A DNA stretch of 23,529 bases, taken from a virus. The stretch covers positions 1-23,529 of the IMG/VR virus record IMGVR_UViG_3300022926_000120; one strand, 5' to 3'. A program made the position numbers and the translations under genes. Each line of letters opens with the position of its first letter. Position 1 is the first letter of the stretch. Below the pieces are notes generated by a model. The model was not told the DNA's origin. It made no database searches and worked only from the letters and a program-made list of their open reading frames with translations. Shown here piece after piece: positions 1,842 to 21,442 of the stretch.

Positions 1842-3606
1842 TTCTTGGGCTGATTCAAATAGAAAGTTAGATAGTCAGTCCAGCTCAGAGGCTGGTCAGT
1901 GGTATACATCCAGAGCAGAATACCAGCGCGGGATTATGGACGCCTGTTCTGACCCTAAAGTTAAAGAAGTCGTTGTCATGGCTGGGGCGCAGCTAGGCAA
2001 GTCAGAAGCCCTTTTGAACATCATCGGATTTCACATCGATCACGATCCTTGTCCTATCCTGATGCTGCAACCGACTGAATCAATGGCTCAGGCGTTTAGT
2101 AAAGACCGAATCGCTAACGGTTTGTTAAGGGCTACACCATGCCTTCAGGGTAAGGTCAAAGACCCAAGAGCTAGGGATTCAGGAAACACTACCCTTCACA
2201 AGATATTTCCGTCAGGCAGTCTTTCTTTGGTCGGCGCTAATAGTCCAGCAGGATTAGCCAGTAGACCGATCAGGATTTTGCTCGCAGATGAGGTCGATAG
2301 ATTCCCTGCATCAGCAGGATCAGAAGGTGATCCAGTCAATCTAGGTAAAAAGCGAACGTCAACTTTCTGGAATCGTAAGATCATCATGGTATCTACGCCA
2401 ACGATCAAAGGCGTTTCCAGAATCGAAGATGCCTATGAAGGGTCTGATCAGCGTGAATATTATGTCCCATGTAAGCATTGTGATCACGAACAGGTCTTAA
2501 AATGGCCTAGCGTCAGGTGGACTGATGAAGATCCTGACACGGCTAAATACCTTTGTGACGAATGCGGTACGCTATGGTCTGATGCCGATAGAAGATGGTC
2601 TATCAGAAACGGTCGTTGGTCTGCTGGCGAAGACTTCAAAGGCATCGCAGGATTCAAGATTTCAGGGTTATATTCACCGTGGACTCCACTAGCTGACGGA
2701 GTTAGAGAATTTTTGGCGGTTAAGAAAAACCCAGAACAGCTAAAGGTCTGGACGAATACTTACTTGGGTGAGGTCTGGGAAGACGAAGGTGAAAGCGTCG
2801 ATGAATTAAACCTGATGCAAAGAAAAGAACACTTTAATCAAGTTCCTGAAGGCGTGGTCATGGTCGTTGCTGGGGCTGACGTACAGGACGACAGAATTGA
2901 AATCACGTTCTTGGGGATTGGTCGAGACGAAGAATCGTGGGTGCTTGATCATGAAATTATGTATGGCGATCCTTCTACACCACAGCTTTGGACAGCATTA
3001 GATACTCAGATTTCAAGAACATTTGAAACAGAAGATGGCCGTGAAATCGCTGTTAGGGCTACGGCTATTGACTCAGGTGGTCACTTCACGAACACGGTTT
3101 ATCAGTACGCCAACAAAAACTTTGGTCGTCGAGTATTCGCTATCAAGGGTGTAGGTGGTGAAGGCAAGCCCATAGCTGGCAAGCCTTCAAGAAATAACAC
3201 GGTTAAATGTCGGTTGTTTCCGGTCGGAGTTGATACGGTTAAGAATTTGATCTTCGCAAGGCTTAGAATCGAAGAAGAAGGTGCCGGTTATGTGCATTTT
3301 TCAGACACGTTAAACGATGAATACTTTCGACAACTGACAGCGGAGAAGATCGTCACTAGATTCGTTAGGGGGTATAAGAAGCGGGTCTTCCAAAAGATTC
3401 GCCCAAGGAATGAGGCTTTAGATTGTTTTGTTTACAGTATAGCTGCTTATAGTATAATTAATGCGAATGTCAATAGCATTGCGGAACGGATTCAGGCAAA
3501 ATCAGCAGAACCAAAGAAGATTGAAGAACCTGAACAAAGCGAGCCAGTAAGAAGGCGGCCCGTTCAGCGTAGGCAACGACAAAACTACACCAACGCATGG
3601 CGATAA
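1762..3606 (+). CDS. terminase large subunit (GpA family)
   Basis: This is the ATP-driven packaging motor and genome-cutting nuclease, acting at the portal vertex. Numbering from the ATG at 1762 (614 residues): the Walker A-like AGAQLGKS is at 74-81, Walker B ILLADEVDRF ends near 181 with its catalytic Glu at 177, and the STPT coupling motif is at 211-214. Two Cys pairs (237/240 and 265/268) form the zinc-ribbon-like insert that GpA proteins carry. The nuclease domain opens with AGADVQDDR, its Asp near 373 a likely metal ligand. A TTG at 1753 and an ATG at 1804 are alternative starts. I prefer 1762 because lambda gpA also has about 30 residues before its first conserved WAD motif. The C-terminus is Arg/Gln/Pro-rich, suited to binding the portal or DNA. 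GpA terminases usually cut at cos sites; no cos site can be pointed to here. Confidence 0.95.
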   Translation: METTSKAKAILFNGMKLLKPPPKFTVSSWADSNRKLDSQSSSEAGQWYTSRAEYQRGIMDACSDPKVKEVVVMAGAQLGKSEALLNIIGFHIDHDPCPILMLQPTESMAQAFSKDRIANGLLRATPCLQGKVKDPRARDSGNTTLHKIFPSGSLSLVGANSPAGLASRPIRILLADEVDRFPASAGSEGDPVNLGKKRTSTFWNRKIIMVSTPTIKGVSRIEDAYEGSDQREYYVPCKHCDHEQVLKWPSVRWTDEDPDTAKYLCDECGTLWSDADRRWSIRNGRWSAGEDFKGIAGFKISGLYSPWTPLADGVREFLAVKKNPEQLKVWTNTYLGEVWEDEGESVDELNLMQRKEHFNQVPEGVVMVVAGADVQDDRIEITFLGIGRDEESWVLDHEIMYGDPSTPQLWTALDTQISRTFETEDGREIAVRATAIDSGGHFTNTVYQYANKNFGRRVFAIKGVGGEGKPIAGKPSRNNTVKCRLFPVGVDTVKNLIFARLRIEEEGAGYVHFSDTLNDEYFRQLTAEKIVTRFVRGYKKRVFQKIRPRNEALDCFVYSIAAYSIINANVNSIAERIQAKSAEPKKIEEPEQSEPVRRRPVQRRQRQNYTNAWR

Positions 3607-3607
3607 A

Positions 3608-4198
3608 ATGGCAAACCTTTTTGATCGTGAGAATTACCCACAGCAAGAGCCTGAAACGCTTGTTGTAGGTGATAGATGGGTCTGGAAACGACCTGATTTA
3701 GTCACCGACTACCCTACTGACCAGTACGCTTTAACGTACGAATTCCACTGTGATACGGGTGGTGGTGGCGCTCATAAATTCACCATCACGGCGACGGAAA
3801 CGACTACTGCCTATATTGTCGAAGTCGATTCATCCACAACAGCGGCTTATAACGCGCATCAATACAAGTGGTTCGCTTACATCACAAGAAGTTCTGATTC
3901 TGAACGTGTCGCAGTAGATAGCGGCATTTCTACGCTGGTCGCCAACTATGCAGACACCAATGCAGATCTCAGAACTCATGCTAAGAAAGTCCTAGACGCG
4001 GTTCAGGCCGTTATTGAGAACAGGGCGACTATTGATCAAAGTTCATTCAGCATCGCTGGCAGAAGCCTTTCTAGGATGTCTATCGATGAATTATTCACGG
4101 TTCGGGATCGTTATCGAGCGGAATACAACGAAGAAGTCAAGAAAGCCCGAATCAGAAACAAGAAGCCTAGCGGCAATCTAATCGGAGTAAGATTCTGA
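3608..4198 (+). CDS. probable gpW-like head-tail connector with an N-terminal beta domain
   Basis: This 196-residue protein lies between terminase and portal, the slot of lambda gpW. The N-terminal 115 residues look like a beta-sandwich: VGDRWVWKRP, then YALTYEF, a Gly-rich turn, and Thr/Val strands. The C-terminal 75 residues are helical with AVIENRA, a central SIAGRSLSRMSIDEL stretch and a basic tail ending GVRF. The order of a helix, a short hairpin carrying an Arg-Ser motif, a helix and a basic end resembles lambda gpW, which is only 68 residues long. It may stabilise packaged DNA and prepare the portal for tail joining. It starts one base after the terminase stop and overlaps the portal start by one base (TGATG). 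The gpW relation is inferred from pattern and position; the role of the beta domain is unknown. Confidence 0.6.
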   Translation: MANLFDRENYPQQEPETLVVGDRWVWKRPDLVTDYPTDQYALTYEFHCDTGGGGAHKFTITATETTTAYIVEVDSSTTAAYNAHQYKWFAYITRSSDSERVAVDSGISTLVANYADTNADLRTHAKKVLDAVQAVIENRATIDQSSFSIAGRSLSRMSIDELFTVRDRYRAEYNEEVKKARIRNKKPSGNLIGVRF

Positions 4199-5673
4199 TG
4201 GCTTGGAATCCGTTCAAGAAGAAAGAAGTTCGCAAGCAGATTAAGCTGCAAAGATCATTCAAAGGTGCTCAAGGTGGTCGGCTATTCGCTGACTTTTTTA
4301 GTTCTTCAGCTAGTGCTGATCAGGAATTAAAACAAGCCCTTGTCACGTTAAGAAATCGTAGCAGGGAGTTGTCAAGAAACGACGCCTATGTCGCCAGATA
4401 TTTGAACTTGCTGAACTCTAATGTGGTCGGCCATAACGGCATCAGGGTTAATGCTAAATCACGAGACGCAGACGGTAGTCTTGATGCGGTCGCGAACACG
4501 ACTATTGAACAGGCGTGGCGCAAGTGGTCTAAGAAGGGCAACTGTACAGTTGACGGACAGATGTCTTTGATCGACTGTCAGCGGCTGTTCATCGAAGCCT
4601 TAGCCCGTGACGGTGAGGTTATCATTCGTCAGATTACAGATCCGGTTAGTGACTTTGGTTATAAGATCGAGTTTTTAGAAGCTGATCATCTGAACGAAAC
4701 CAAGAATGAAATCTACACCAACGGAAATCGGGTGGTGATGGGGGTCGAGATTGATCAGAACCGAAAGCCGGTTGCTTATCATCTTTATAAAAACCATCCC
4801 AACGACTTAGGTTTGAATCAGAACAATGAAACGATTCGCGTACCGGCTGAAGAAATCATTCATGCTTTCGTGCGTCAGCGCCCAGAACAGACTCGCGGTT
4901 ATCCTTTCGTGGCTCCGGTCATGGGCAATATCAAAATGCTGAACGGGTATTACGAAGCAGAAATAACTGCTGCTAGAGTAGCAAGCGCGAAGATGGGATT
5001 CTTTACAAGTCCAGCGGGTGATGGTTACGTTGGCGATGATCTTGAAGACGAATATACGCCTATCACTTATGCCGAACCGGCGACATTTGAGCAGCTCCCT
5101 GCTGGGATGGACTTTAAAGCCTTTGACGTAGCACATCCGACGACAGCGTTTGAAAGTTTTTCAACTGCTGTTCTTAGAAGCATAGCGTCAGGTCTGAACA
5201 TAAGTTATCACAGCATTTCTAACGACTTATCCAGCGTAAATTATTCATCTCTAAGGGCTGGCAGCTTAGAGGATCGTGACCAGTACAGGGTGCTTCAGAA
5301 GTTCATGATTGAACACTTCATCGAGCCGGTATTCCGAAGCTGGTTGAAGAACGCGATGACTAGAAGCATCAATCTTCCTATCCAGAAATACGACAAGTTT
5401 GCCGATGGCGTGACGTATATTCCAAGGTCTTGGGGTTGGGTTGATCCGCAGAAAGAAATGATGGCGAATATCGCTGGGCTTCAGAATGGCATCGTGACGT
5501 ATCAAGACATAGAATCCAACTATGGGCGCGATGTTGAAGAACTATTTGAGCAGCACGAACGCGAAGATAAACTTGCTACTCAGTATGGCGTGAAGACAGC
5601 GTTCCAGCCGTTTGGAATGAAGATGCCGGTAGACGCAGACATTCAAGGAAGCGATGATGCCGACTCCGACTGA
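4198..5673 (+). CDS. portal protein (lambda family)
   Basis: This 491-residue protein should form the dodecameric ring at one capsid vertex through which DNA enters and leaves and to which the tail attaches. It begins with a basic, amphipathic stretch. It carries the lambda-type portal signature: RNRSRELSRNDAYVARYL near residue 55, then VVGHNGI, LARDGEVIIRQI, EADHLN, and the later SNDLSSVNYSSLRAGSLEDR region around 345. That last segment is a hallmark of the Phage_portal_2 group. The acidic C-terminus (ADIQGSDDADSD) overlaps the start of the protease-capsid gene by 20 bases. The ATG at 4198 overlaps the TGA of the preceding gene, so it is probably translated by coupling. Length is close to lambda gpB (533 residues). 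Confidence 0.93.
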   Translation: MAWNPFKKKEVRKQIKLQRSFKGAQGGRLFADFFSSSASADQELKQALVTLRNRSRELSRNDAYVARYLNLLNSNVVGHNGIRVNAKSRDADGSLDAVANTTIEQAWRKWSKKGNCTVDGQMSLIDCQRLFIEALARDGEVIIRQITDPVSDFGYKIEFLEADHLNETKNEIYTNGNRVVMGVEIDQNRKPVAYHLYKNHPNDLGLNQNNETIRVPAEEIIHAFVRQRPEQTRGYPFVAPVMGNIKMLNGYYEAEITAARVASAKMGFFTSPAGDGYVGDDLEDEYTPITYAEPATFEQLPAGMDFKAFDVAHPTTAFESFSTAVLRSIASGLNISYHSISNDLSSVNYSSLRAGSLEDRDQYRVLQKFMIEHFIEPVFRSWLKNAMTRSINLPIQKYDKFADGVTYIPRSWGWVDPQKEMMANIAGLQNGIVTYQDIESNYGRDVEELFEQHEREDKLATQYGVKTAFQPFGMKMPVDADIQGSDDADSD

Positions 5674-7990
5674 AGGCATGAAAGAAGACGCGCAGCGCGG
5701 TCTTGATTGGCGGCGTGAGTTTGGTCGTGGCGGTACTGAAGTCGGGATTGCTCGCGCTAGAGATATCGTCAACGGAAAGAACCTGTCAGATTCTACGGTA
5801 AAAAGGATGTATTCATTCTTTTCACGGCATGAAGTAGACAAGAAGGGCAAAGGTTTTAACCAAGGCGAAGAAGGATATCCGTCGAATGGTAGGATAGCTT
5901 GGGCGCTTTGGGGTGGTGATGCTGGTTTTAGCTGGTCAAAAAGATTGGTTGAGCAAATGAAAGACGATGAAAGATCATCGGATTTGATTGACATTAGTGA
6001 TAATATACCCATGACTGACGAGGTGAAAGACATGGAACGACATATAGTTAATGTGGAAGAAACAGAAGACTCATTTATCATCGAATTGGCTAAGGCTGAA
6101 ACAAGCGAAGAAGTCGAAATCGTCGATGAGGTTCAAGCTGAAGACGCTGAATATGAAGCGATGGCTGAAGATATCGAAAGAAGCAAGGCTTCTGAAATGG
6201 TCTATCGCACTGTTGACCTTTCTAGCGGTGCTATAGATGAAGAAAAAAGAATTGTTCGGATTGGAGTTTCTAGCGAAAGTCCAGTCGAACGTGATTTTGG
6301 CTTAGAGGTTTTAAGCCATAAGAAGGAAGACATAGACATGGAGTTTATGGCTTCAGGTCGTGCGCCCCTTTTGAACAACCATAAAATGGATGAACAGATA
6401 GGTGTGGTGCGATCATTTTACCTTGACGAGACGCATCGGCGCACCGTTGCGTTGGTTGAATTTGGCAATTCAGCCTTGGCTCAAGAGGTTTTTGCAGACG
6501 TGAAATCCGGTATAAAGCAGAATATTTCTGTCGGATATAGCGTCAAAAAGCTGGTTCGCGCCAAAGACAATGAAGGTCGAGAATACTACAGGGCAAGCTG
6601 GACACCGATGGAAGCATCGATTGTTTCAATCCCTGCTGATAGCTCAAAATTTGTTGGTGTTGGTCGATCCTCAGAAAAAACTCTAAACACTAATAAGGTG
6701 GAAACTATGACTGAAGAAACTAAAGTCGATGTGCGCCAAGTCAGTGAGTCAGCCAAGGCAGAAGCATTAGCATCTGTGTCTGAGATCATTGCATTGGGTA
6801 AGCACCACAATCAGCGTGATTTAGCTGAAAAAGCTATTGAACGCGGTGTAACCGTTGAGCAATTCCGTGGCGAGCTTCTTGAAGCTGTGCGAAATGATCA
6901 ACCTTTAGAAACGCCTGCTGCTGTCGTTGACGTAGCGAAAAGTGAGCGGCGTGAATATAGCTTGATCCGAGCTATTAAAGCTGCTTCATCTGGTGACTGG
7001 CGTGAAGCTGGCTATGAGCGTGAAATCTCAGACGAGATTGCAATTCGTTCTGGCAAAGAAGCCCGAGGCTTCTACCTTCCTGCTAACATCAACTGGGGCC
7101 AACGTGATCAAACTGCTGGCACTGATAGCCAAGGTGGGTTCTTGGTTGGTACTGACCATTTGGCAGACCAGTTCATCGAAGCATTGTATGCTCGATTGAC
7201 TATCACTTCTTTGGGTGCTCGCGTAATGCAGGGTCTGAAGGGCGATGTTGCTATTCCTAAGCTCAGTGCTTCTGTAACCAATTCAGCATTTGTTGCTGAA
7301 GGTTCAGCACCCAGCGAAGGCGCAGCTACGTTTGCACAAGTAACCATGTCCCCGAAAACGCTAGCGGCATACGTTGACGTTTCGAGAAGGCTAACACAGC
7401 AATCAGATCCATCCGTAGAACAGGTTCTTCGTAACGACATCATCAACACTTTCGCACGAAAGATCGATGACGTAGCTATCGAAGGCGGCGCTGCAAATGC
7501 ACCATCGGGCATCATTGCAAACGGCTCTACTAATGTTGTATCAATGGGAACCAACGGTGCTGCTATCACCTACGCTAAAGTAGTTGAATTGATGAAGGCT
7601 GTCGAAGAAGACAATGCCATGATCAACAGCTCTGCTTTCTTGACCAACCCTAAAGTCATCGCGGCTTTACGGACTGTCAGCAAGCAAGCGTCTGGTGTTG
7701 AAGGCAACTTTATCATGGATCCAAACGGCACGATCTTAGGAACTGAAGTAGCTTCTAGCACTTTGGTGCCTTCTGATCTGACCAAAGGAACCGGAACGGC
7801 GTTGTCAGCAATGATCTACGGCGACTTCAGTCAAATTATGCTCGGCTTCTGGTCTGGCGTTGACGTGGTTGTTGATCAAAGCAGCTTGTCTACTTCTGGC
7901 GGTACGCGATTAGCGTTCTTCCAAGACTTAGATGTTGCTCTTAGATACCCCGAATCTTTCGCGGTAATCAAAGACATCATTGCAAGCTAA
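5654..7990 (+). CDS. head polyprotein: N-terminal module + S78-like prohead protease + HK97-fold major capsid protein
   Basis: One 778-codon frame encodes what most phages split into two or three genes. Residues about 9-100 form a compact module (RARDIVNGKNLSD, RHEVDKKGKGF, GRIAWALWGGDAG) that I have seen in phage proteins but cannot name. Residues about 180-338 are a prohead protease with the expected triad candidates: His243 in LLNNHK, Ser292 in KQNISVGYS, and Glu320 in PMEASIVSIPAD. From Met352 follows an HK97-type capsid protein: a charged helical delta-like region to about 440, then QGGFLVG, the shell core, and a C-terminus with YPESFAVIKD. The protease would cut the delta region after assembly. 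Two internal ATGs with good Shine-Dalgarno sequences (6032, 6707) could give protease-capsid and capsid alone. ATG 5657 is an equal choice of start. The frame has no stop or frameshift, so the fusion is real in this sequence. Confidence 0.93.
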   Translation: MMPTPTEGMKEDAQRGLDWRREFGRGGTEVGIARARDIVNGKNLSDSTVKRMYSFFSRHEVDKKGKGFNQGEEGYPSNGRIAWALWGGDAGFSWSKRLVEQMKDDERSSDLIDISDNIPMTDEVKDMERHIVNVEETEDSFIIELAKAETSEEVEIVDEVQAEDAEYEAMAEDIERSKASEMVYRTVDLSSGAIDEEKRIVRIGVSSESPVERDFGLEVLSHKKEDIDMEFMASGRAPLLNNHKMDEQIGVVRSFYLDETHRRTVALVEFGNSALAQEVFADVKSGIKQNISVGYSVKKLVRAKDNEGREYYRASWTPMEASIVSIPADSSKFVGVGRSSEKTLNTNKVETMTEETKVDVRQVSESAKAEALASVSEIIALGKHHNQRDLAEKAIERGVTVEQFRGELLEAVRNDQPLETPAAVVDVAKSERREYSLIRAIKAASSGDWREAGYEREISDEIAIRSGKEARGFYLPANINWGQRDQTAGTDSQGGFLVGTDHLADQFIEALYARLTITSLGARVMQGLKGDVAIPKLSASVTNSAFVAEGSAPSEGAATFAQVTMSPKTLAAYVDVSRRLTQQSDPSVEQVLRNDIINTFARKIDDVAIEGGAANAPSGIIANGSTNVVSMGTNGAAITYAKVVELMKAVEEDNAMINSSAFLTNPKVIAALRTVSKQASGVEGNFIMDPNGTILGTEVASSTLVPSDLTKGTGTALSAMIYGDFSQIMLGFWSGVDVVVDQSSLSTSGGTRLAFFQDLDVALRYPESFAVIKDIIAS
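6020..6034 (+). promoter_or_regulatory. internal ribosome binding site and in-frame start before the protease domain
   Basis: GAGGTG at 6020-6025 is followed after six bases by ATG at 6032-6034, in frame with the head polyprotein (Met127). The spacing is near ideal. Initiation here would give a protease-capsid protein without the N-terminal module. The site lies between two domains, where a former gene boundary would be expected. Use of the site is inferred. Confidence 0.5.
6695..6709 (+). promoter_or_regulatory. internal ribosome binding site and in-frame start of the capsid protein
   Basis: AAGGTGG at 6695-6701 stands five bases before ATG 6707-6709, in frame as Met352 of the polyprotein. 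The ATG sits exactly at the junction between the protease end (VGVGRSSEK) and the capsid delta-like region (MTEETKVDV). Independent initiation would supply capsid protein in excess of protease, which head assembly needs. The sequence shows the site; its use is inferred. Confidence 0.6.
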
Positions 7991-7997
7991 TGAGAAC

Positions 7998-8015
7998 GGG
8001 GGGTTTCGGCCCCCC
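7998..8015 (+). terminator. GC hairpin just after the capsid stop codon
   Basis: Six G (7998-8003), the loop TTTCGG, then six C (8010-8015) make a perfect six-pair GC stem starting eight bases after the capsid TAA. The bases that follow (AATCTTAT) are not a U-run, so it is a poor intrinsic terminator. It may instead partly attenuate transcription or protect the 3' end of capsid mRNA, letting less message reach the low-copy head-completion genes downstream. Confidence 0.6.
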
Positions 8016-13491: not shown

Positions 13492-13880
13492 TGCAGTTGC
13501 AAGTTCTGCAAGCGTTAAACAAATGGGAGCGTCGGGACTTTACCTACGGCGACGCTGATTGCTGCCAGTTTGCTGGATTCATTGTAAAAGAGCTGACCGG
13601 AAAAGACTATTTGACTGATTTCCACTATAATTCAGAAGACGAAGCGTATCAGATAATCAGGTCTAACGGCGACCTAGAAGACACTGTTTCAACGGTCTTA
13701 GGCGAGTCTACAGCCGAGATTGACAGTCTTCCTGATGGTAGCCCTGTATTAATTACCTTGCCTGATACACAGCTTCTAGGCGTTAAATTAGGAAATCAAG
13801 CGGTATGCCTGACATTAAAAGGTCTAGCCAGAATGCCTAAAGAATTCATCGTTATGGGTTGGAAATTATGGGGCCAGTAG
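13491..13880 (+). CDS. DUF6950-like protein, NlpC/P60-type cysteine peptidase fold
   Basis: A 129-residue protein at the position of lambda gpK. It opens LQVLQALNKWERRDFTYGDADCCQFAGFIV; the Y-G-x-x-D-C-C-x-F-A motif (residues about 19-28) looks like the catalytic Cys at the start of a helix in NlpC/P60 enzymes. The second half has LPDGSPVLITLPD and a GVKLGNQAVC strand. There, a catalytic His would be expected, but I see none in the usual place (Asn-Gln stands there). Its only His is in FHYN near 44. So it may be a degenerate or structural relative that no longer cuts peptidoglycan. It overlaps the hub gene by about 13-22 bases. Confidence 0.65.
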   Translation: MQLQVLQALNKWERRDFTYGDADCCQFAGFIVKELTGKDYLTDFHYNSEDEAYQIIRSNGDLEDTVSTVLGESTAEIDSLPDGSPVLITLPDTQLLGVKLGNQAVCLTLKGLARMPKEFIVMGWKLWGQ

Positions 13881-16800
13881 CACCTTTTTTATTATTTTTG
13901 CAAAATGTGGGTATTGCAGTAGCAGGCGCTGTCGGTGGGCTTGGCGCTGCCGCTTCACTTGGAATAGCGCAAGCAATAGCGTTAGGAGGCGCAGTTATTG
14001 CTGGTGTTACGCTAGTAGCAAACAAAGCTATGGCTTCCTTGTATGAGATCGACATGCCTAAAGTCGATACCGATGCAAGCCGACAAAGAACAGTAAGATC
14101 AACCACAGAACCTTATAAAACGATATATGGTGAGACGCTTGTTAGTGGCCCTATTTCCTATATAGGGATGGCTGGAACTGACAACGAAGATCTGTATCAC
14201 GTCATAGCCTTAGCAGGTCATGAAGTCACAGATATTACGGATATCTACTTTGACAATAAGCTGATACAAGATTCTCAGATAAACGGCGGGTCTAGTGCTG
14301 GGGGTAATGTTACAGGAGGGACTTTTGGCCCTAAAAACAGCACGACTATTTGTGTAATCAACAAGCATTTAGGAACGGCTACACAAACTGCTGATTCTAT
14401 GATGGCTGGCACGTTTGCTGATTACACTTCAGCCCATCAGGGTAAAGGCATTGCTTACATAGCAATGAAATGGAAGCTGAACGAAGACTCAGCAGAAGTT
14501 TGGGACAAGTACGCACCGTCAGACATTAAAGCTATCGTCAAAGGTAAGCCGGTCTACGATCCGAGGCTAGACACAGGCGGTTACGGCGACAACCCTACTA
14601 ATGATTTATTCATTACCTATAACGCAACGGCTGGTAGTTATGTCGGCCAAGGTCAAAATCCTGCTTTGGTTCTGGCTGATTACTTGATCAACGAAGATTT
14701 CGGAATGGGTATTGCCCCATCAAAAATAGACTGGAATGCAGTAGTAACTGCGGCGAATGGGTGTGATGTTTCTGTTGATGTTCCTAACGGGACACAAAAG
14801 CGCTTCACGGTAAACGGTGTTTTGTTCGGAACTGATTCACACCGTACAAATATCAACAAGATCTTGTCTGCAATGAACGGGCATCTCGTTTATTCCAACG
14901 GCAAGTATATTCTTCATGCTGGTATTTACGAAGCTGAAACCGTTCAGAATCCCTATGAGAGTCTTAACGAAGATGACCTTATCGGGGCTATTGGCATCAA
15001 AACATCATTTGAGCGGTCAGACAGATTCAACACGATTAAAGGTCTTTTTGTTGATCCAGCGCAGAATCACAAGTCAACCGAGTTTCCAAAGGTACAGTTA
15101 TCTGACGCTGTTAATAGGGACAACGGGGAAGTCTTAGAAAAAGAAGTCCAGTTTCCGATGACCAACTCAAGCTACATGGCGCAAAGACTTGCACATAAGC
15201 TTATCCAATTAACTGATCAACAAAAAGTAATCACCTTCCCCGCGAATTTATCAGCGCTAAGAATTACCGCAGGAGATAGAGTCAAGGTATCTATTGAGGA
15301 ATTGAGCTGGACTAACAAAGTCTTTATGTGCGTAGGCTGGACGTTTTCAGATGAAGGCGGTGTCAATCTTACGCTCCGAGAAGATTCTTATACTTCTTAT
15401 GCTGATCCCACGGTAACGCCAAACAATGAATATTCTACCATCACTGCCACAGGCGACATCACAGACGCATTCAGAGGCGTTCCTAGCCCGTCTGGCTTAA
15501 ATGCTACTGCTGGGCTAAAGAATATAGAACTTAATTGGGTAAACCCTTTGCGGCCAGCAGATTACGCCACTATTTATGTTTACGCGTCACCAAACTCATC
15601 CTTTTCTTCAGCGGTAAAAATTGGCGAGACTGACGGAACCCAATTTATTCATGATGGGGCGAATCCTGCTGACGCGGTTTCTGTTGGAGATCAGAGGTAT
15701 TATTGGGTCAGGGCAATTAAAAATATAGGAACTGACGCGGCTAGTCAGTCCGATTTAAGCAACTCTGATAGCGCGACAGTTGGTGCTGTTGAATGGGATG
15801 ACGTTGCTAATCCGACAATCGGTATTGATATAAACAACGATACCATTTCAATCAACACGGGATCTGCGACCACAACGACAGGTCAAGATGTAGCAACAAG
15901 CGGGATTGAAGCTGGCACAACCGTCACTCAGGGCGGCATCACAATGAATCAAGGCGGCTCTATAAAGGGCGGTCAAAGTGCCTACAACAGCGGCACAGGC
16001 TTCTTTCTTGGATACGTCGACGGCACTCCGACGGGTAAATATAAATTCAGCATAGGCAACGCGAGCAACGAGGCGCTGACGTTTGACGGTACAAATTTGG
16101 CCGTTACCGGAAACATTACCGCAACAAGCGGAACATTCACCGGAACTGTAAATGCCTCTTCTGGCGCATTTACTGGCGACGTTAGCACTGACTCAAAGTT
16201 TATTGCTGGATCTGGCGCAACATCTGCCACGATGGACGGTGGCGACCCTGAATTTAAATTGTACGCTGGCGCTGCGGCACCGGCTGACGCATCGTTTAAA
16301 GTTGATGCAAACGGCGTAGTCACAGCAACGAGGTTGGTAGTAACTCGACCCGATGATACGACTGCCATCATGTTTGACTCAGCGCAAGATGGCTTGGTTG
16401 GCATAGGGTTGGCTGCTGTCTCGCAAGAAACGGGTATCGTTGTTCAAAATCCGTCGGTCGAAATTACGTCGAGCAATCCTAACCCCGCACTGATATTGAG
16501 CGCATCGCAAACGATCACTTTAACACTTTTGGCTGGAACTCCGGCAAGCAAGAAAGTCACATCATACGGCGGCGAATATCCGTCTGAAATAACGGCCACG
16601 ATAGAATACTCAACGAATAACGGGTCAAGCTGGTCTACGTTTGGGTCGGCTGTTCAGCTAACTAGAACTGCGGTCAGATCACCATCTGACTCGACTAAAT
16701 ACGGTGTGGCTACATTCACAAACACTGGTGCGGGAGTTAGATCGTACATTCGCGGCATTCATGCAATAGACTCAATCGGTAATTTGCAATTTGTTCGCAG

Positions 16801-19800
16801 CGTCTCAGGTTTTGCGGCTGGTAGTTATATATTCCGAGTTAGTCTATCGCAGACTGCTGGCAGCGATACTGACATGAACGTCAGCACTTCCCCACCGTTT
16901 ACGCTTAAATTTGAAACAGACGCGGCAGGATTTACAGTAGCCGCGAACGGGACATTATCTGATGCCCCATCTGCAACAGCTACCATTGGGTATGTGCAAT
17001 CTAATTACATGGCCTTGGCTAACGGCAACACTATTACCGTCGGATCTGGCGAGATCAATGATTTTCAAGATGAAAGCGGTAACAGCGTTTTGATTATTAG
17101 CGATACAAAAACCGAGGTTAGGGATAGCTTAGAAGTAACCTATACATCAGCCAATCCCACGACGGATAAGATTTTCCGCATTAAGGATTACAACTCAACA
17201 TTTGAAACTTTTAGTATTCGGGAAGACGGTTTCGTAAATAACTGGACGGGGATAAATGTCGGCGGTGGTTACGGCAGCACCGGCACAACCATTGATGCCG
17301 CAGGCAATATAAGCACCGACGGCAATGTCACTATCGGCGGCGACCTAACAGTTCAAGGCACAACTACCACCGTAGACACTGACAACCTGACCGTTAAAGA
17401 CAACAACATCACCCTAAACTATTCCACGGGTGACAGTTCATCAACTGCCGATAACGCGGGGATCACGATTCAAGATGCGGTCGACGCAAGCACAGATGCT
17501 TCTATTTTATGGAAGACCGCCAGCGATTCTTTTGAGTTTAGTCACGGCGCTAATATTCCAAAGACTTATCTTAAAGCAACGGATCAAGATGTTGAGTCTG
17601 GAACTTGGACTTCAAGCACGACATCAGGCTCGTGGGGAAGTATAAAACTCGCCGCAGGATATTCTTATACCGCCAACGCTGGAGCATATAAGCAATACGA
17701 CATCCCTGCTGGAGCTGATACTTGTTACATGTCGTTTCTAAAATGGTCTAATGGGGGTTACGTTGATGTTCATGCGGTACAAGCTGACGGAGATCTTGTA
17801 TTTCTCGGCAGGATAAGCACAGGACAGTCAGTAGAAAATAGTAACGAGGGAAATTCGGTAGAGCATGATGGACAAGCGATTGTCAAAATAGGAACTGGTT
17901 TAGACAATTTTAGTTCCATAAGAATCACAAATAAGCGTGGGACATTTTATTTTTCAGGACTAGCTTTCTCTACGCAGCAATTAGACAGTTTTGACTCAGG
18001 GATGATCGCCGCTGAAGTGATCCATTCCGGCGTGTTGTCTAATGTAACGAACACAAATTGGGACGCTGCTTACACTTATAGCCAAGTCGGACATCTGCCA
18101 CTTTCTGGTGGCACTCTGACAGGCGCAGTGTCATGGCCTAGCGGTGGTTCAGCAAACGCTAATACGGCATATACCTATTCACAAGTAGGTCACTTACCTT
18201 TGGCTGGTGGGGCTTTAACTGGCGACTTGGATATCAAAAAAACTGGTGACGATACAATTGTAGACATAAGGGGAAATGGGAGTTACGACCCTATTTTAAA
18301 CCTAAGATCTGACCAAGGGGGAATTGCATCAGAAGGCTTTCAAATCTGGTATGACAACAGCGTGGGTGATGTTCATTTACATACAACTTATGACAACGAC
18401 GTTGCTGCAATACGTTTTCACACGAAAACAGCGGCTGACAAAGCCACATCTAATGAGCGTTTCGCAATTCTAGGCAGCGGAATGGTCAACATTGTAAGCG
18501 GTAATTTGCTTATGAATGGCACCGCCGTGATTCACAACGACAGAAGCATTTTCCCGACTAGTATAGAAGTGACCGGATCATATACCGGAGGAAGTGGTGA
18601 CTTTACCAACATAGTCAATGCTCAGTTGAAGATTGCATCAGCAGGCTCAGCGGACTTTTGGAGAATCCCACACTTTTCTACACACTCTAGCATTTCTGGG
18701 GTTTACAACTATGAAACCGGAAAGCATGTTTACTGGGGAGAGTCTACAGACACAGGAAGTTATCATTTCCGTGGGCGTAAAATTATCGGTTATAGCGGCG
18801 AAGTCTGGGATGATACTACTCAAGGAACTGGGATCGGCAGCATTCACCTAAATCCTAATTCAACGGCTGACAACGCAGGAAGCGCAATAACTTTCGGAGC
18901 TTCAGATACAGGCAGTGGAGCGACCGCACAAGCAGGGATTTATGTGCGATCAGACGGTAGCTACGGTACAAAGATGTATTTGTCTACTACAAATAGTTAC
19001 AATCAAGGGTCTAAAACAGGATTATCACTAGACCATGACGGTAACGTAGCTATTACTGGCCAAATCAACTCTGGAGCTATTATAAGAGCGACTGCAGACG
19101 GAACTAATAACACTTATGAGGGAGTGATAAAAACTGTCAACACAGGCAGTGCTCAGTGGGGGCACATAACCCTTGGCGGTTCTGCCACAAACAACGCCAT
19201 AAATAATTATTACATGGTCGGCAGAGGCGCTGCTGTCTCTGATAGAAATTTGTCTTTCCATGTGCCAAACGCAGCCAATTACGGAGATACCACGCAGCCA
19301 AAATTCCTGTTTGCCTCAACAGGGGCTGATACTTTGATGACGATTACCGCGTCAACAGGTGATGTTTATGCAAAAGGCAGTATCACTTCTGCATCTGGCA
19401 CTAGTGCTATTAACAATTTTCGTTTGACCGATTCATCAGTTATGGGCTTTGGTACGGTCAAGGCTGGCAGTACAGTAGGGCACAATGCTTCAGTAGACGA
19501 AGGTATCTTTTGGCATACAAGCAACACATATGGAATTTATCGCAACGCTGGTGACTGGACTGCCCCAGACTATCAGCAGTTAAGAATTGAGTTTGAAACG
19601 GGCATTGAGATAGACGGTGGAAGTGCTTACGGAAAGTCTGGCATAAATATTCTTTCAGATTTGCAGATTAGCGGTGAAACCGTCCTTAACACTAGTCGTG
19701 TTATGACGAACATCACCAGTATTGCATCGGGTCAAATTAATGTCACAAGCAGCGCAGGATCATTCGACGCGATTAGATTAGGCAGTTCGGCTCAAACTGG

Positions 19801-21442
19801 CTATAGCAACATTGTTTGGTATGCCGAAGGTGGAAACGCACAGATTTTTAAAGGTAGCTCTACATATTCAGACTGGGGCGGTGCAAATTCACTAAATATT
19901 TATAATAGCAACGGTGAGATCGCCTTTCACCCTTCAGGAGACGCTAACACTTTTACAATCAACGATTCATTTCTAAATTATACAAATAACCTAAGTTCTA
20001 CTTATTTCAAAATTAGATCAACTTACACAGCAAACGCCATATCTAACTTGACTTATCTATGGCTTGAAAGTGGCAGTGGAGCCGATGGATATTTAATAAA
20101 AAACGGATACGGGACTGGTAACGGCCTACCAAGTAACGAGCTTTATCTATGGAATAGTAGTACCAACGCCGAAATATCTTTTGTTACTGCTTCCGACATA
20201 AGCAGGAGGTTTAGCGTAAGGCCTGACGGATCAGTATATAAATATGTAGATACATCTCTTGGAACTACTTTCGTCAGTAGCTCTACCAATTCAGGCAGAG
20301 GTCAAGGATACGTCGTAGGGAAAAGCTATGTTGCAGGCGATTATGTTTCTTTGATTGAAGCACCATTTTCTACTGGTACAGATGCTGACGTTCGCATCGC
20401 CGCAAAATTTACAAGTAGTGGATCTCATATAATCTTTGGCACTTCAGACAGTTACGGATATATCACTCACGCTCCGTTAGAACTTGACTATAGAAATTAT
20501 GTATTCGCTAAACATATTGTTGGAGGAGAAAGCTCCCACGCGTTTACGCCGCCTATTGACCAAGAACTCGGCTACAGTAATCACAGTTTCGGTGCATTAG
20601 GTATTTTACACAGAAACGCTTACGACTCTTATATAACAGCTAACGCTTACTATTATAAGACCGGAGGTTCTAGCACTTGGAGAAATAAATATGCTAGTTA
20701 CTATTCTTCCATAATAAGTTTTCTTAACGGAGAGATGACATATGAAGTCAGCTCTACGGCACCCTCAAGTTCTGGGTCTGTAATAAATTTTAGCGCCGCA
20801 TTTAAAGTGACTAGATCGGGGCAGATAGAAGCAGAAAGCCGCAATTTGATAATGGGAGCAGATGCCTATTCTAACAGCTCTAGTTACTTGGGAATGAAAA
20901 CTTCTCTCCAGTCTGGTGCTAGTGATTACATGATCATATCAGGATTGAGCGACGGAAATACTTATGTTTCTGCAAAAGATGGTAATGGTGTTTATATAAG
21001 GGGCGGCGGCAATCTAACCACTAATCAAATTTTAGTTCCCGATAACAGTTACATAACCGTCACAACAAGCAATTTCAACGTGACTGGAAATGTTACAGCT
21101 TATTCGTCCTCAGACATTCGTTTGAAAAATAACATACGCCCGATTACTTCAGCCTTGGATAAGGTGCATAAAATAAATGGCGTCCATTTTGAATGGAAAG
21201 ATGATTTCGTTAAAACAATGTCCGGCAACGGAGAGGTCAATTTTAGAAAGGATGATGTGGGCGTAATTGCTCAAGAAGTGAAACTGGTGTTGGATGAGGT
21301 TGTTTCTGAACGAGAAGACGGAACCCTAGCGGTAAGGTATGAAAAAATCGTTCCTCTGCTTATAGAAGCAATTAAAGAGCAAACGCAAATGATCAAAGAC
21401 TTACAAACACAGGTAGAGGATATAAAAAATGGCAATGACTAA
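13868..21442 (+). CDS. tail tip attachment protein J-like hub fused to a long fibre with a C-terminal S74 chaperone
   Basis: This 2,524-residue protein binds the host and forms the tip and fibre. The ATG at 13868 is preferred over TTG 13859. Residues 3-55 are an Ala/Gly-rich hydrophobic segment. Then comes a gpJ-like hub (YKTIYGETLVSGPISYIG, DLYHVIALAGHEVTDI) to about 520. An FN3-like domain spans about 537-638 (IELNWVNP, YYWVRAI). A fibre follows, with GTFTGTVNASSGAFTGDV, a beta-sandwich insert near 857-1020, DLTVQGTTTT near 1159, and paired YTYSQVGHLPL repeats at 1401 and 1434. The C-terminus is an S74 intramolecular chaperone: Ser2415-Asp2416 in SSSDIRLKNNI, then GVIAQEV and IVPLLIEAIKEQ. 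By the endosialidase precedent it would trimerise the fibre and cut itself off between Ser and Asp, releasing 109 residues. Lambda gpJ is 1,132 residues, so this is over twice as long. Confidence 0.9.
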   Translation: MGPVAPFLLFLQNVGIAVAGAVGGLGAAASLGIAQAIALGGAVIAGVTLVANKAMASLYEIDMPKVDTDASRQRTVRSTTEPYKTIYGETLVSGPISYIGMAGTDNEDLYHVIALAGHEVTDITDIYFDNKLIQDSQINGGSSAGGNVTGGTFGPKNSTTICVINKHLGTATQTADSMMAGTFADYTSAHQGKGIAYIAMKWKLNEDSAEVWDKYAPSDIKAIVKGKPVYDPRLDTGGYGDNPTNDLFITYNATAGSYVGQGQNPALVLADYLINEDFGMGIAPSKIDWNAVVTAANGCDVSVDVPNGTQKRFTVNGVLFGTDSHRTNINKILSAMNGHLVYSNGKYILHAGIYEAETVQNPYESLNEDDLIGAIGIKTSFERSDRFNTIKGLFVDPAQNHKSTEFPKVQLSDAVNRDNGEVLEKEVQFPMTNSSYMAQRLAHKLIQLTDQQKVITFPANLSALRITAGDRVKVSIEELSWTNKVFMCVGWTFSDEGGVNLTLREDSYTSYADPTVTPNNEYSTITATGDITDAFRGVPSPSGLNATAGLKNIELNWVNPLRPADYATIYVYASPNSSFSSAVKIGETDGTQFIHDGANPADAVSVGDQRYYWVRAIKNIGTDAASQSDLSNSDSATVGAVEWDDVANPTIGIDINNDTISINTGSATTTTGQDVATSGIEAGTTVTQGGITMNQGGSIKGGQSAYNSGTGFFLGYVDGTPTGKYKFSIGNASNEALTFDGTNLAVTGNITATSGTFTGTVNASSGAFTGDVSTDSKFIAGSGATSATMDGGDPEFKLYAGAAAPADASFKVDANGVVTATRLVVTRPDDTTAIMFDSAQDGLVGIGLAAVSQETGIVVQNPSVEITSSNPNPALILSASQTITLTLLAGTPASKKVTSYGGEYPSEITATIEYSTNNGSSWSTFGSAVQLTRTAVRSPSDSTKYGVATFTNTGAGVRSYIRGIHAIDSIGNLQFVRSVSGFAAGSYIFRVSLSQTAGSDTDMNVSTSPPFTLKFETDAAGFTVAANGTLSDAPSATATIGYVQSNYMALANGNTITVGSGEINDFQDESGNSVLIISDTKTEVRDSLEVTYTSANPTTDKIFRIKDYNSTFETFSIREDGFVNNWTGINVGGGYGSTGTTIDAAGNISTDGNVTIGGDLTVQGTTTTVDTDNLTVKDNNITLNYSTGDSSSTADNAGITIQDAVDASTDASILWKTASDSFEFSHGANIPKTYLKATDQDVESGTWTSSTTSGSWGSIKLAAGYSYTANAGAYKQYDIPAGADTCYMSFLKWSNGGYVDVHAVQADGDLVFLGRISTGQSVENSNEGNSVEHDGQAIVKIGTGLDNFSSIRITNKRGTFYFSGLAFSTQQLDSFDSGMIAAEVIHSGVLSNVTNTNWDAAYTYSQVGHLPLSGGTLTGAVSWPSGGSANANTAYTYSQVGHLPLAGGALTGDLDIKKTGDDTIVDIRGNGSYDPILNLRSDQGGIASEGFQIWYDNSVGDVHLHTTYDNDVAAIRFHTKTAADKATSNERFAILGSGMVNIVSGNLLMNGTAVIHNDRSIFPTSIEVTGSYTGGSGDFTNIVNAQLKIASAGSADFWRIPHFSTHSSISGVYNYETGKHVYWGESTDTGSYHFRGRKIIGYSGEVWDDTTQGTGIGSIHLNPNSTADNAGSAITFGASDTGSGATAQAGIYVRSDGSYGTKMYLSTTNSYNQGSKTGLSLDHDGNVAITGQINSGAIIRATADGTNNTYEGVIKTVNTGSAQWGHITLGGSATNNAINNYYMVGRGAAVSDRNLSFHVPNAANYGDTTQPKFLFASTGADTLMTITASTGDVYAKGSITSASGTSAINNFRLTDSSVMGFGTVKAGSTVGHNASVDEGIFWHTSNTYGIYRNAGDWTAPDYQQLRIEFETGIEIDGGSAYGKSGINILSDLQISGETVLNTSRVMTNITSIASGQINVTSSAGSFDAIRLGSSAQTGYSNIVWYAEGGNAQIFKGSSTYSDWGGANSLNIYNSNGEIAFHPSGDANTFTINDSFLNYTNNLSSTYFKIRSTYTANAISNLTYLWLESGSGADGYLIKNGYGTGNGLPSNELYLWNSSTNAEISFVTASDISRRFSVRPDGSVYKYVDTSLGTTFVSSSTNSGRGQGYVVGKSYVAGDYVSLIEAPFSTGTDADVRIAAKFTSSGSHIIFGTSDSYGYITHAPLELDYRNYVFAKHIVGGESSHAFTPPIDQELGYSNHSFGALGILHRNAYDSYITANAYYYKTGGSSTWRNKYASYYSSIISFLNGEMTYEVSSTAPSSSGSVINFSAAFKVTRSGQIEAESRNLIMGADAYSNSSSYLGMKTSLQSGASDYMIISGLSDGNTYVSAKDGNGVYIRGGGNLTTNQILVPDNSYITVTTSNFNVTGNVTAYSSSDIRLKNNIRPITSALDKVHKINGVHFEWKDDFVKTMSGNGEVNFRKDDVGVIAQEVKLVLDEVVSEREDGTLAVRYEKIVPLLIEAIKEQTQMIKDLQTQVEDIKNGND
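18068..18223 (+). repeat. two copies of a fibre repeat, exactly 99 bases apart
   Basis: The coded motif AYTYSQVGHLPLxGGxLTG occurs at 18068-18124 and again at 18167-18223. The protein copies differ at only two positions, while third bases differ widely (GGACATCTGCCA versus GGTCACTTACCT). This is an old duplication kept by selection on the protein. The L-P-L-x-G-G-x-x-T-G motif is common in phage fibres. Confidence 0.85.

Follow-up and report, generated by a model that had tools for sequence, protein, structure and literature searches.

Described protease-capsid fusions and nested starts

Fused capsid-proteases have already been described (PMC8508860, PMC8601537), as the preliminary description of the DNA analysed here had stated, among them a tripartite capsid gene that holds protease, scaffold and capsid (PMC8508860). 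Such fusions pose a ratio problem, with hundreds of shell subunits per capsid and few proteases. The gene examined in this work is the head fusion gene of the virus record IMGVR_UViG_3300022926_000120 (positions 1 to 23,529; this whole stretch of 23,529 nucleotides, nt, is called the window), in which a single reading frame joins an N-terminal module, a prohead protease, a delta (scaffold) region and an HK97-fold shell protein, and contains two internal ATG codons preceded by Shine-Dalgarno (SD) sequences. The phrog_617-type fusions (VP882, phiHAP-1, R4C, RcCronus and ep3-like phages), to which the NCBIfam family NF045541 is related, have the same protease-delta-shell order, and most have an ATG with an SD at the protease/capsid border (the border start), but they lack the N-terminal module, and their internal capsid start is unannotated in the records examined. 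In the paper on the CRP phages, the corresponding gene is labelled 'capsid' and the protease is unmentioned (PMC12629253). The CRP-822-type roseophages (CRP-406, 811, 821, 831) and the cyanophages S-CBS1 and S-CBS3 share with the window an N-module/protease/capsid frame located behind the portal gene, although some of them carry extra inserted modules (DUF5824, RPYPNEHAAR, TUDOR).

In Gifsy-2, one gene encodes a ClpP-like protease, the scaffold and the capsid protein. The tripartite gene of Gifsy-2 and MD8 is like the present one in uniting protease, scaffold and capsid, but it has an unrelated, ClpP-like protease and no N-module, whereas the protease part in the window matches the S78 and phrog_617 families and not the ClpP/S49-like proteases that mark the Gifsy-2 type. 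The best internal ATG by SD in the Gifsy-2 capsid gene (22471-24561) is codon 221, near the expected end of the protease, and this one sequence gives a hint that the internal-start solution arose more than once. For phage lambda, Shaw and Murialdo (1980, cited in PMC8508860) reportedly described a nested in-frame start within the protease gene C that leads to a shorter scaffold product, Nu3. The present gene follows the same principle of nested in-frame genes, with in-frame internal ATGs that have SDs and are kept among its relatives, but in lambda the capsid protein E comes from a separate gene and there is one nested start, as opposed to two here. No report of internal capsid starts in protease-capsid fusions was found in the open-access literature searched. 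Fusions and nested starts are each known; their combination, its conservation and the modular front look new.

Two candidate internal starts at the domain borders

The features of the head fusion gene, in window coordinates, were as follows:

5654..7990, + strand: fusion frame of N-module, linker, protease, delta region and HK97 shell protein, 778 amino acids (PF05065, 2.6e-38; phrog_617, 4e-123 over residues 183-775)
5645..5659, + strand: first start, AAGGA (5645-5649) with ATG at 5654 (or 5657); anti-SD energy -4.5/-5.4
5654..5980, + strand: N-terminal module A (residues 1-109), a five-helix domain of many phage head proteins (model with a predicted local distance difference test score, pLDDT, of 93; phrog_2859, 1e-31)
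5981..6220, + strand: disordered acidic linker, with the conserved element MERHIVNVEETEDSFIIELAK from Met127 (pLDDT below 50 for residues 107-192; alignments)
6020..6034, + strand: internal start 1, SD GAGGTG (6020-6025), 6 nt spacer, ATG at 6032 (Met127, codon 127); rank 2 of 51 in-frame starts
6221..6670, + strand: S78-like prohead protease domain (residues ~190-339; PF04586 partial, 0.0007; TIGR01543, 3.6e-8; phrog_617)
6695..6709, + strand: internal start 2, SD AAGGTGG (6695-6701), 5 nt spacer, ATG at 6707 (Met352, codon 352); rank 1 of 51 in-frame starts
6707..7135, + strand: delta/scaffold region (residues 352-~494), predicted helical (helices 365-384 to 449-465) and expected to be cleaved off (R4C alignment)
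7136..7987, + strand: mature shell protein (residues ~495-778), HK97 fold (8gta_A, 3.3e-31 over residues 494-769)

Every in-frame ATG, GTG and TTG was scored by how well the bases ahead of it pair with the anti-SD sequence. Met352 (-7.8) and Met127 (-7.2) were the two best of the 51 codons, whereas Met1 and Met2 reached only -4.5 and -5.4, respectively. The strongest ordinary gene starts of the window ranged from -7.3 to -8.2, and among the internal ATGs of its other genes one in 107 reached -7.2 and none reached -7.8. The sequences, spacers and positions given for both sites in the preliminary description were exactly confirmed, and its placing of both at domain borders agreed with the predicted model, in which they fall in low-confidence linkers, Met127 past the N-module and Met352 ahead of the delta helices; the full-length AlphaFold model was poor (mean pLDDT 42.8), and only its N-module and linkers were considered. 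The internal SDs are stronger than that of the full-length start, and this is consistent with a low copy number of the N-module. An internal promoter as a source of short messenger RNAs was unsupported, since promoter-like sites were no commoner than chance. On the sequence evidence, it is quite probable that the frame is translated in a nested manner into three products.

Conservation of the border start

Relatives were collected by an IMG/VR scan with the whole protein, which yielded 78 loci, named phages being fetched in addition, and by a second scan with the N-module alone, which yielded 46 triple fusions (N-module/protease/capsid) corresponding to 33 clusters at 80% identity, with capsid identity down to 31%; the wider relatives, grouped at 85% identity, formed 28 clusters. 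An SD-preceded border ATG was present in all of the triple-fusion clusters (33/33), with a median rank of 0.06 among all internal ATGs and 16 near or at the top (approximate Fisher rank p-value = 2e-15; synonymous-shuffle p-value = 1e-6), as well as in most of the 28 wider clusters (mean rank 0.126 among internal ATGs, approximate Fisher p-value = 2e-10), where the border SD again exceeded the synonymous shuffles (p-value = 4e-5). The preliminary description had named a lack of conservation of these ribosome sites among relatives as an outcome that would speak against its proposal; the alignments instead showed both sites to be conserved.

The codon alignment of the border was variable in sequence, with the in-frame ATG kept after AAGGTG, GAGGTG, GGAG, GAGG, AAGGA or GGAGG. 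Across 58 border ATGs (one cluster counted twice) the information peaked at A-G-G in positions -11 to -9, and more than 25 different residue combinations, spread over all three codon phases, encoded the SD core; the spacers measured mostly 5-8 nt. The synonymous shuffles show what appears to be selection on nucleotides at the internal ribosome sites. SD-like sites might also pause ribosomes at domain borders for folding, with no initiation, and both sites indeed lie in inter-domain linkers; pausing, however, does not depend on an ATG, whereas every triple-fusion cluster has one at a distance usual for starts (mostly 5-8 nt), and we regard this explanation as very unlikely.

Several points weigh against nested translation. 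The border ATG is kept without an SD in the cyanophages S-CBS1, S-CBS3 and S-LBS1, the hosts of which depend less on SDs, making an SD-less border ATG plausible; the border SD is weak in FoX1; the Met127-type start is weak in the L049/L050 group and missing in L112 and L173, which have a TUDOR-like module ahead of the protease; the Fisher p-values count related clusters as independent and are hence approximate; and no protein-level or ribosome-profiling data for these phages were found in the open-access literature. The SDs could, in addition, be decaying relics of separate gp4-like and gp5-like genes that were recently fused, a view that draws on the separate, adjacent protease and capsid genes of HK97 (PMC8508860) and on the cyanophage members without an SD. 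It is a poor fit with the retention of the sites across otherwise diverged lineages, which differ at more than 60% of residues, and with the nucleotide selection indicated by the shuffles, and its chances appear slight.

Two loci were set aside. In L058 the frame breaks at a run of A near residue 345, which is probably a sequencing error, and CRP-823 (L005), where a frameshift separates the N-modules from the protease, was considered as a natural experiment but may represent an assembly error, because its preparation had not been freed of other phages (PMC12629253). Over 2489-5417 of CRP-823, where the frameshift divides the N-modules from the protease-capsid frame, the record annotates two overlapping capsid genes.

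The Met127-type start

The conserved element ERHIVNVEETEDSF follows the Met127 site. Many relatives have an ATG with GAGGTG, GAGGAG or AAGGAG at this position, and at the N-module/protease border an ATG was found in 29 of the 33 triple-fusion clusters, several of them with GAGGAG (rank p-value = 7e-9, synonymous p-value = 4e-5). Where a TUDOR-like module stands before the protease, the ATG with its SD precedes that module (L111, L136, L139). A sister group (L036-L043, L047, L048 and L054) lacks the N-module; its frame opens at the Met120/127 position, and AGGAG or GGAG is found where the portal gene ends. Module A-protease fusions whose capsid gene is separate have GGAGG-ATG after module A (L150, L152, L158). 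Because of the sites kept in relatives, the N-less lineages that begin there and the separate-capsid fusions, this second internal start is accepted as likely, although it is less certain than that at Met352.

Protease, delta region and shell protein

The shell part passed the cut-off for HK97-fold major capsid proteins (PF05065, 132.5 bits, gathering score 24.2), and the phrog_617 profile spanned protease and capsid in one frame (E-value = 4.1e-123, residues 183-775, profile positions 9-624 of 626). The score for NF045541 (prohead protease/major capsid protein fusion) was 139.2 bits, with only residues 194-433 aligned and a threshold of 525 bits. The S78 families scored under their curated cut-offs (PF04586, 20.2 vs. 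21 bits; TIGR01543, 33.7 vs. 59 bits), and for this reason the protease is named S78-like only, as a divergent relative. His243, Ser292 and Glu320 were invariant in 16 relatives (alignment A2) and are, by analogy, the predicted catalytic residues of an S78-like protease.

The deposited virion shell chain of R4C (8gta) comprises only the C-terminal 268 residues of the 629-residue R4C frame, starting at Gly362, which corresponds to Gly495 of the present protein in the alignment; Met352 would therefore begin a delta-plus-shell protein of 427 residues. This product is organised like HK97 gp5, and that of Met127 would be a protease joined to a gp5-like protein. The gene had been presented as a three-part head polyprotein; the single frame stands, but four segments describe it better, since a delta/scaffold region (residues 352-~494) precedes the mature shell protein.

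The smaller products might all derive from one full-length precursor by self-cleavage of the protease, with the internal ATG and SD pairs unused. Cleavage is very likely involved, because the protease is fused to its own substrate and the virion chain of the relative is C-terminal only. As the sole source of the smaller products, however, self-cleavage leaves unexplained both the universal border ATG with its SD in the 33 clusters, encoded by changing residues, and the lineages whose frame opens at Met127, and it forces one protease per capsid subunit. HK97-type heads usually have a low protease copy number. Self-cleavage alone is thus, in our judgement, improbable.

Under nested translation, an HK97-type protease gene (gp4-like) and a capsid gene (gp5-like, delta plus shell) would have been fused in frame, with a swappable domain slot in front, and the fused cistrons would retain their own ribosome sites; neighbouring genes joined in this way would be the simplest history. 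Initiation at Met1/2 (the weakest), Met127 and Met352 would generate three nested proteins, namely a low-copy full-length form, protease-delta-shell, and delta-shell, the last serving as the principal building block. Via their shell domain, the low-copy forms would be built into the procapsid and carry the protease and N-module into its interior, where the protease would cut at about residue 494 and remove the delta, protease and module regions. The frame, its domains, the conserved pairs of ATG and SD and the exchange of slot contents are seen directly, and from them we infer the use of the starts, including its stoichiometry, the product ratios, the cleavage in this phage and the location of the module in the lumen. 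The targeting or nucleation role suggested for the module in the preliminary description is likewise conjectural, and the module may instead serve as cargo, in DNA or portal contacts, or in protease regulation. If this is true, a conserved border start in phages of many hosts would solve the protease:shell ratio problem, and the main capsid product of such phages would be mis-annotated, because its true start would lie inside the listed gene.

The N-terminal module and the exchangeable slot

The only family matched by residues 1-109 was phrog_2859, a family without function; no family was found for module A in Pfam, NCBIfam or PDB sequence searches, and a Foldseek comparison with PDB structures gave nothing at E <= 0.001. 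In a second look (VIA) the best Z was 5.1 to a helical protein, in the range of common helical arrangements, and for that reason the lack of a structural match is no proof of a new fold. Against viral models, in contrast, 62 matches were obtained at E <= 0.001, with names including prohead protease, XkdF, portal, Mu gp29-like, Dps, HAD, TUDOR and capsid fragment. Module A is carried on portals (L153, L163, L177), on a portal-MuF protein (L149, HRTV-4) and on separate proteases (L150, L158 and XkdF of Limnohabitans phage DC31), and it stands alone in the jumbo phage PaBG. In L143 (3992-5323) it is joined straight to an HK97-like capsid protein (assigned by eye), with no protease between them and an ATG after AAAAGGAATT at the junction (-5.6). 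The frame L166:3776-5893 holds a small module, module A, and HAD-like, Dps-like and prohead protease domains (named by eye, with similar names among the viral-model matches), and several enzymes are apparently borne by this head protease.

By its distribution among these sequences, module A is a mobile phage-head domain; the N-terminal module noted in the preliminary description is indeed present, but it is common to many phages rather than an addition private to this gene. Its fusion partners nearly all face the procapsid interior, which suggests a role in the lumen without distinguishing which one. Polyvalent phage proteins, in the parts of Iyer et al. (2017, PMC5512222) drawn on here, are likewise small domains fused to portal or MuF proteins and thought to be carried in the capsid; neither this module nor a capsid-protease fusion is described in those parts, and module A has no recognisable enzyme.

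In the slot before the protease, module A occurs together with DUF5824 (B), the RPYPNEHAAR domain (C) or an Hva1_TUDOR-like domain (T), or is replaced by a fifth module (SLRNSEYPxFD...IWKAGGNIRGNEAF) in front of the same protease-capsid frame (L061:176-3049 and L064:700-3501), for which no Pfam or PHROG family scored above chance. In a tree built from the protease-capsid part (67 rows; good support for 47 of 64 inner branches), the slot architecture underwent at least 31 changes (B 14, T 10, C 9, A 4). As judged from this tree, the slot contents are often exchanged while the border starts persist. Such a swappable front slot would be a natural route for loading extra domains into the capsid, and would open a way to study module A, a widespread phage-head domain without known function or clear match to a solved structure. 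Tentatively, and with more doubt than belief, we propose that in a large group of marine phages the whole procapsid recipe (cargo, protease, scaffold and shell) is encoded as three nested products of one frame, the front slot being a loading bay in which small helical or TUDOR-like domains are exchanged, to be taken into the lumen in low copy number as passengers on the capsid lattice.

Genomic context

The window contains a tailed-phage late region with terminase, head-tail joining protein, portal, head fusion gene and tail genes; no close phage record was recovered by megablast of the window. The first start of the head fusion frame overlaps the 3' end of the portal gene, which ends at 5673. 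Immediately after the capsid stop, at 7998-8015, there is a strong G/C hairpin, GGGGGG-TTTC-GGCCCCCC (-20.7 kcal/mol with flanks, z = -2.3), without a T run on the + strand, and in the relatives Mano and Mica a terminator is annotated immediately 3' of the capsid gene. Upstream of the terminase gene, positions 71-1306 encode a ParB-like domain joined to a DNA methyltransferase (phrog_498, 4e-175, plus ParB-like families), and in the tail region a frame of 2527 residues (13859-21442, with a TTG start according to the mechanical list of open reading frames) occupies about one third of the window.

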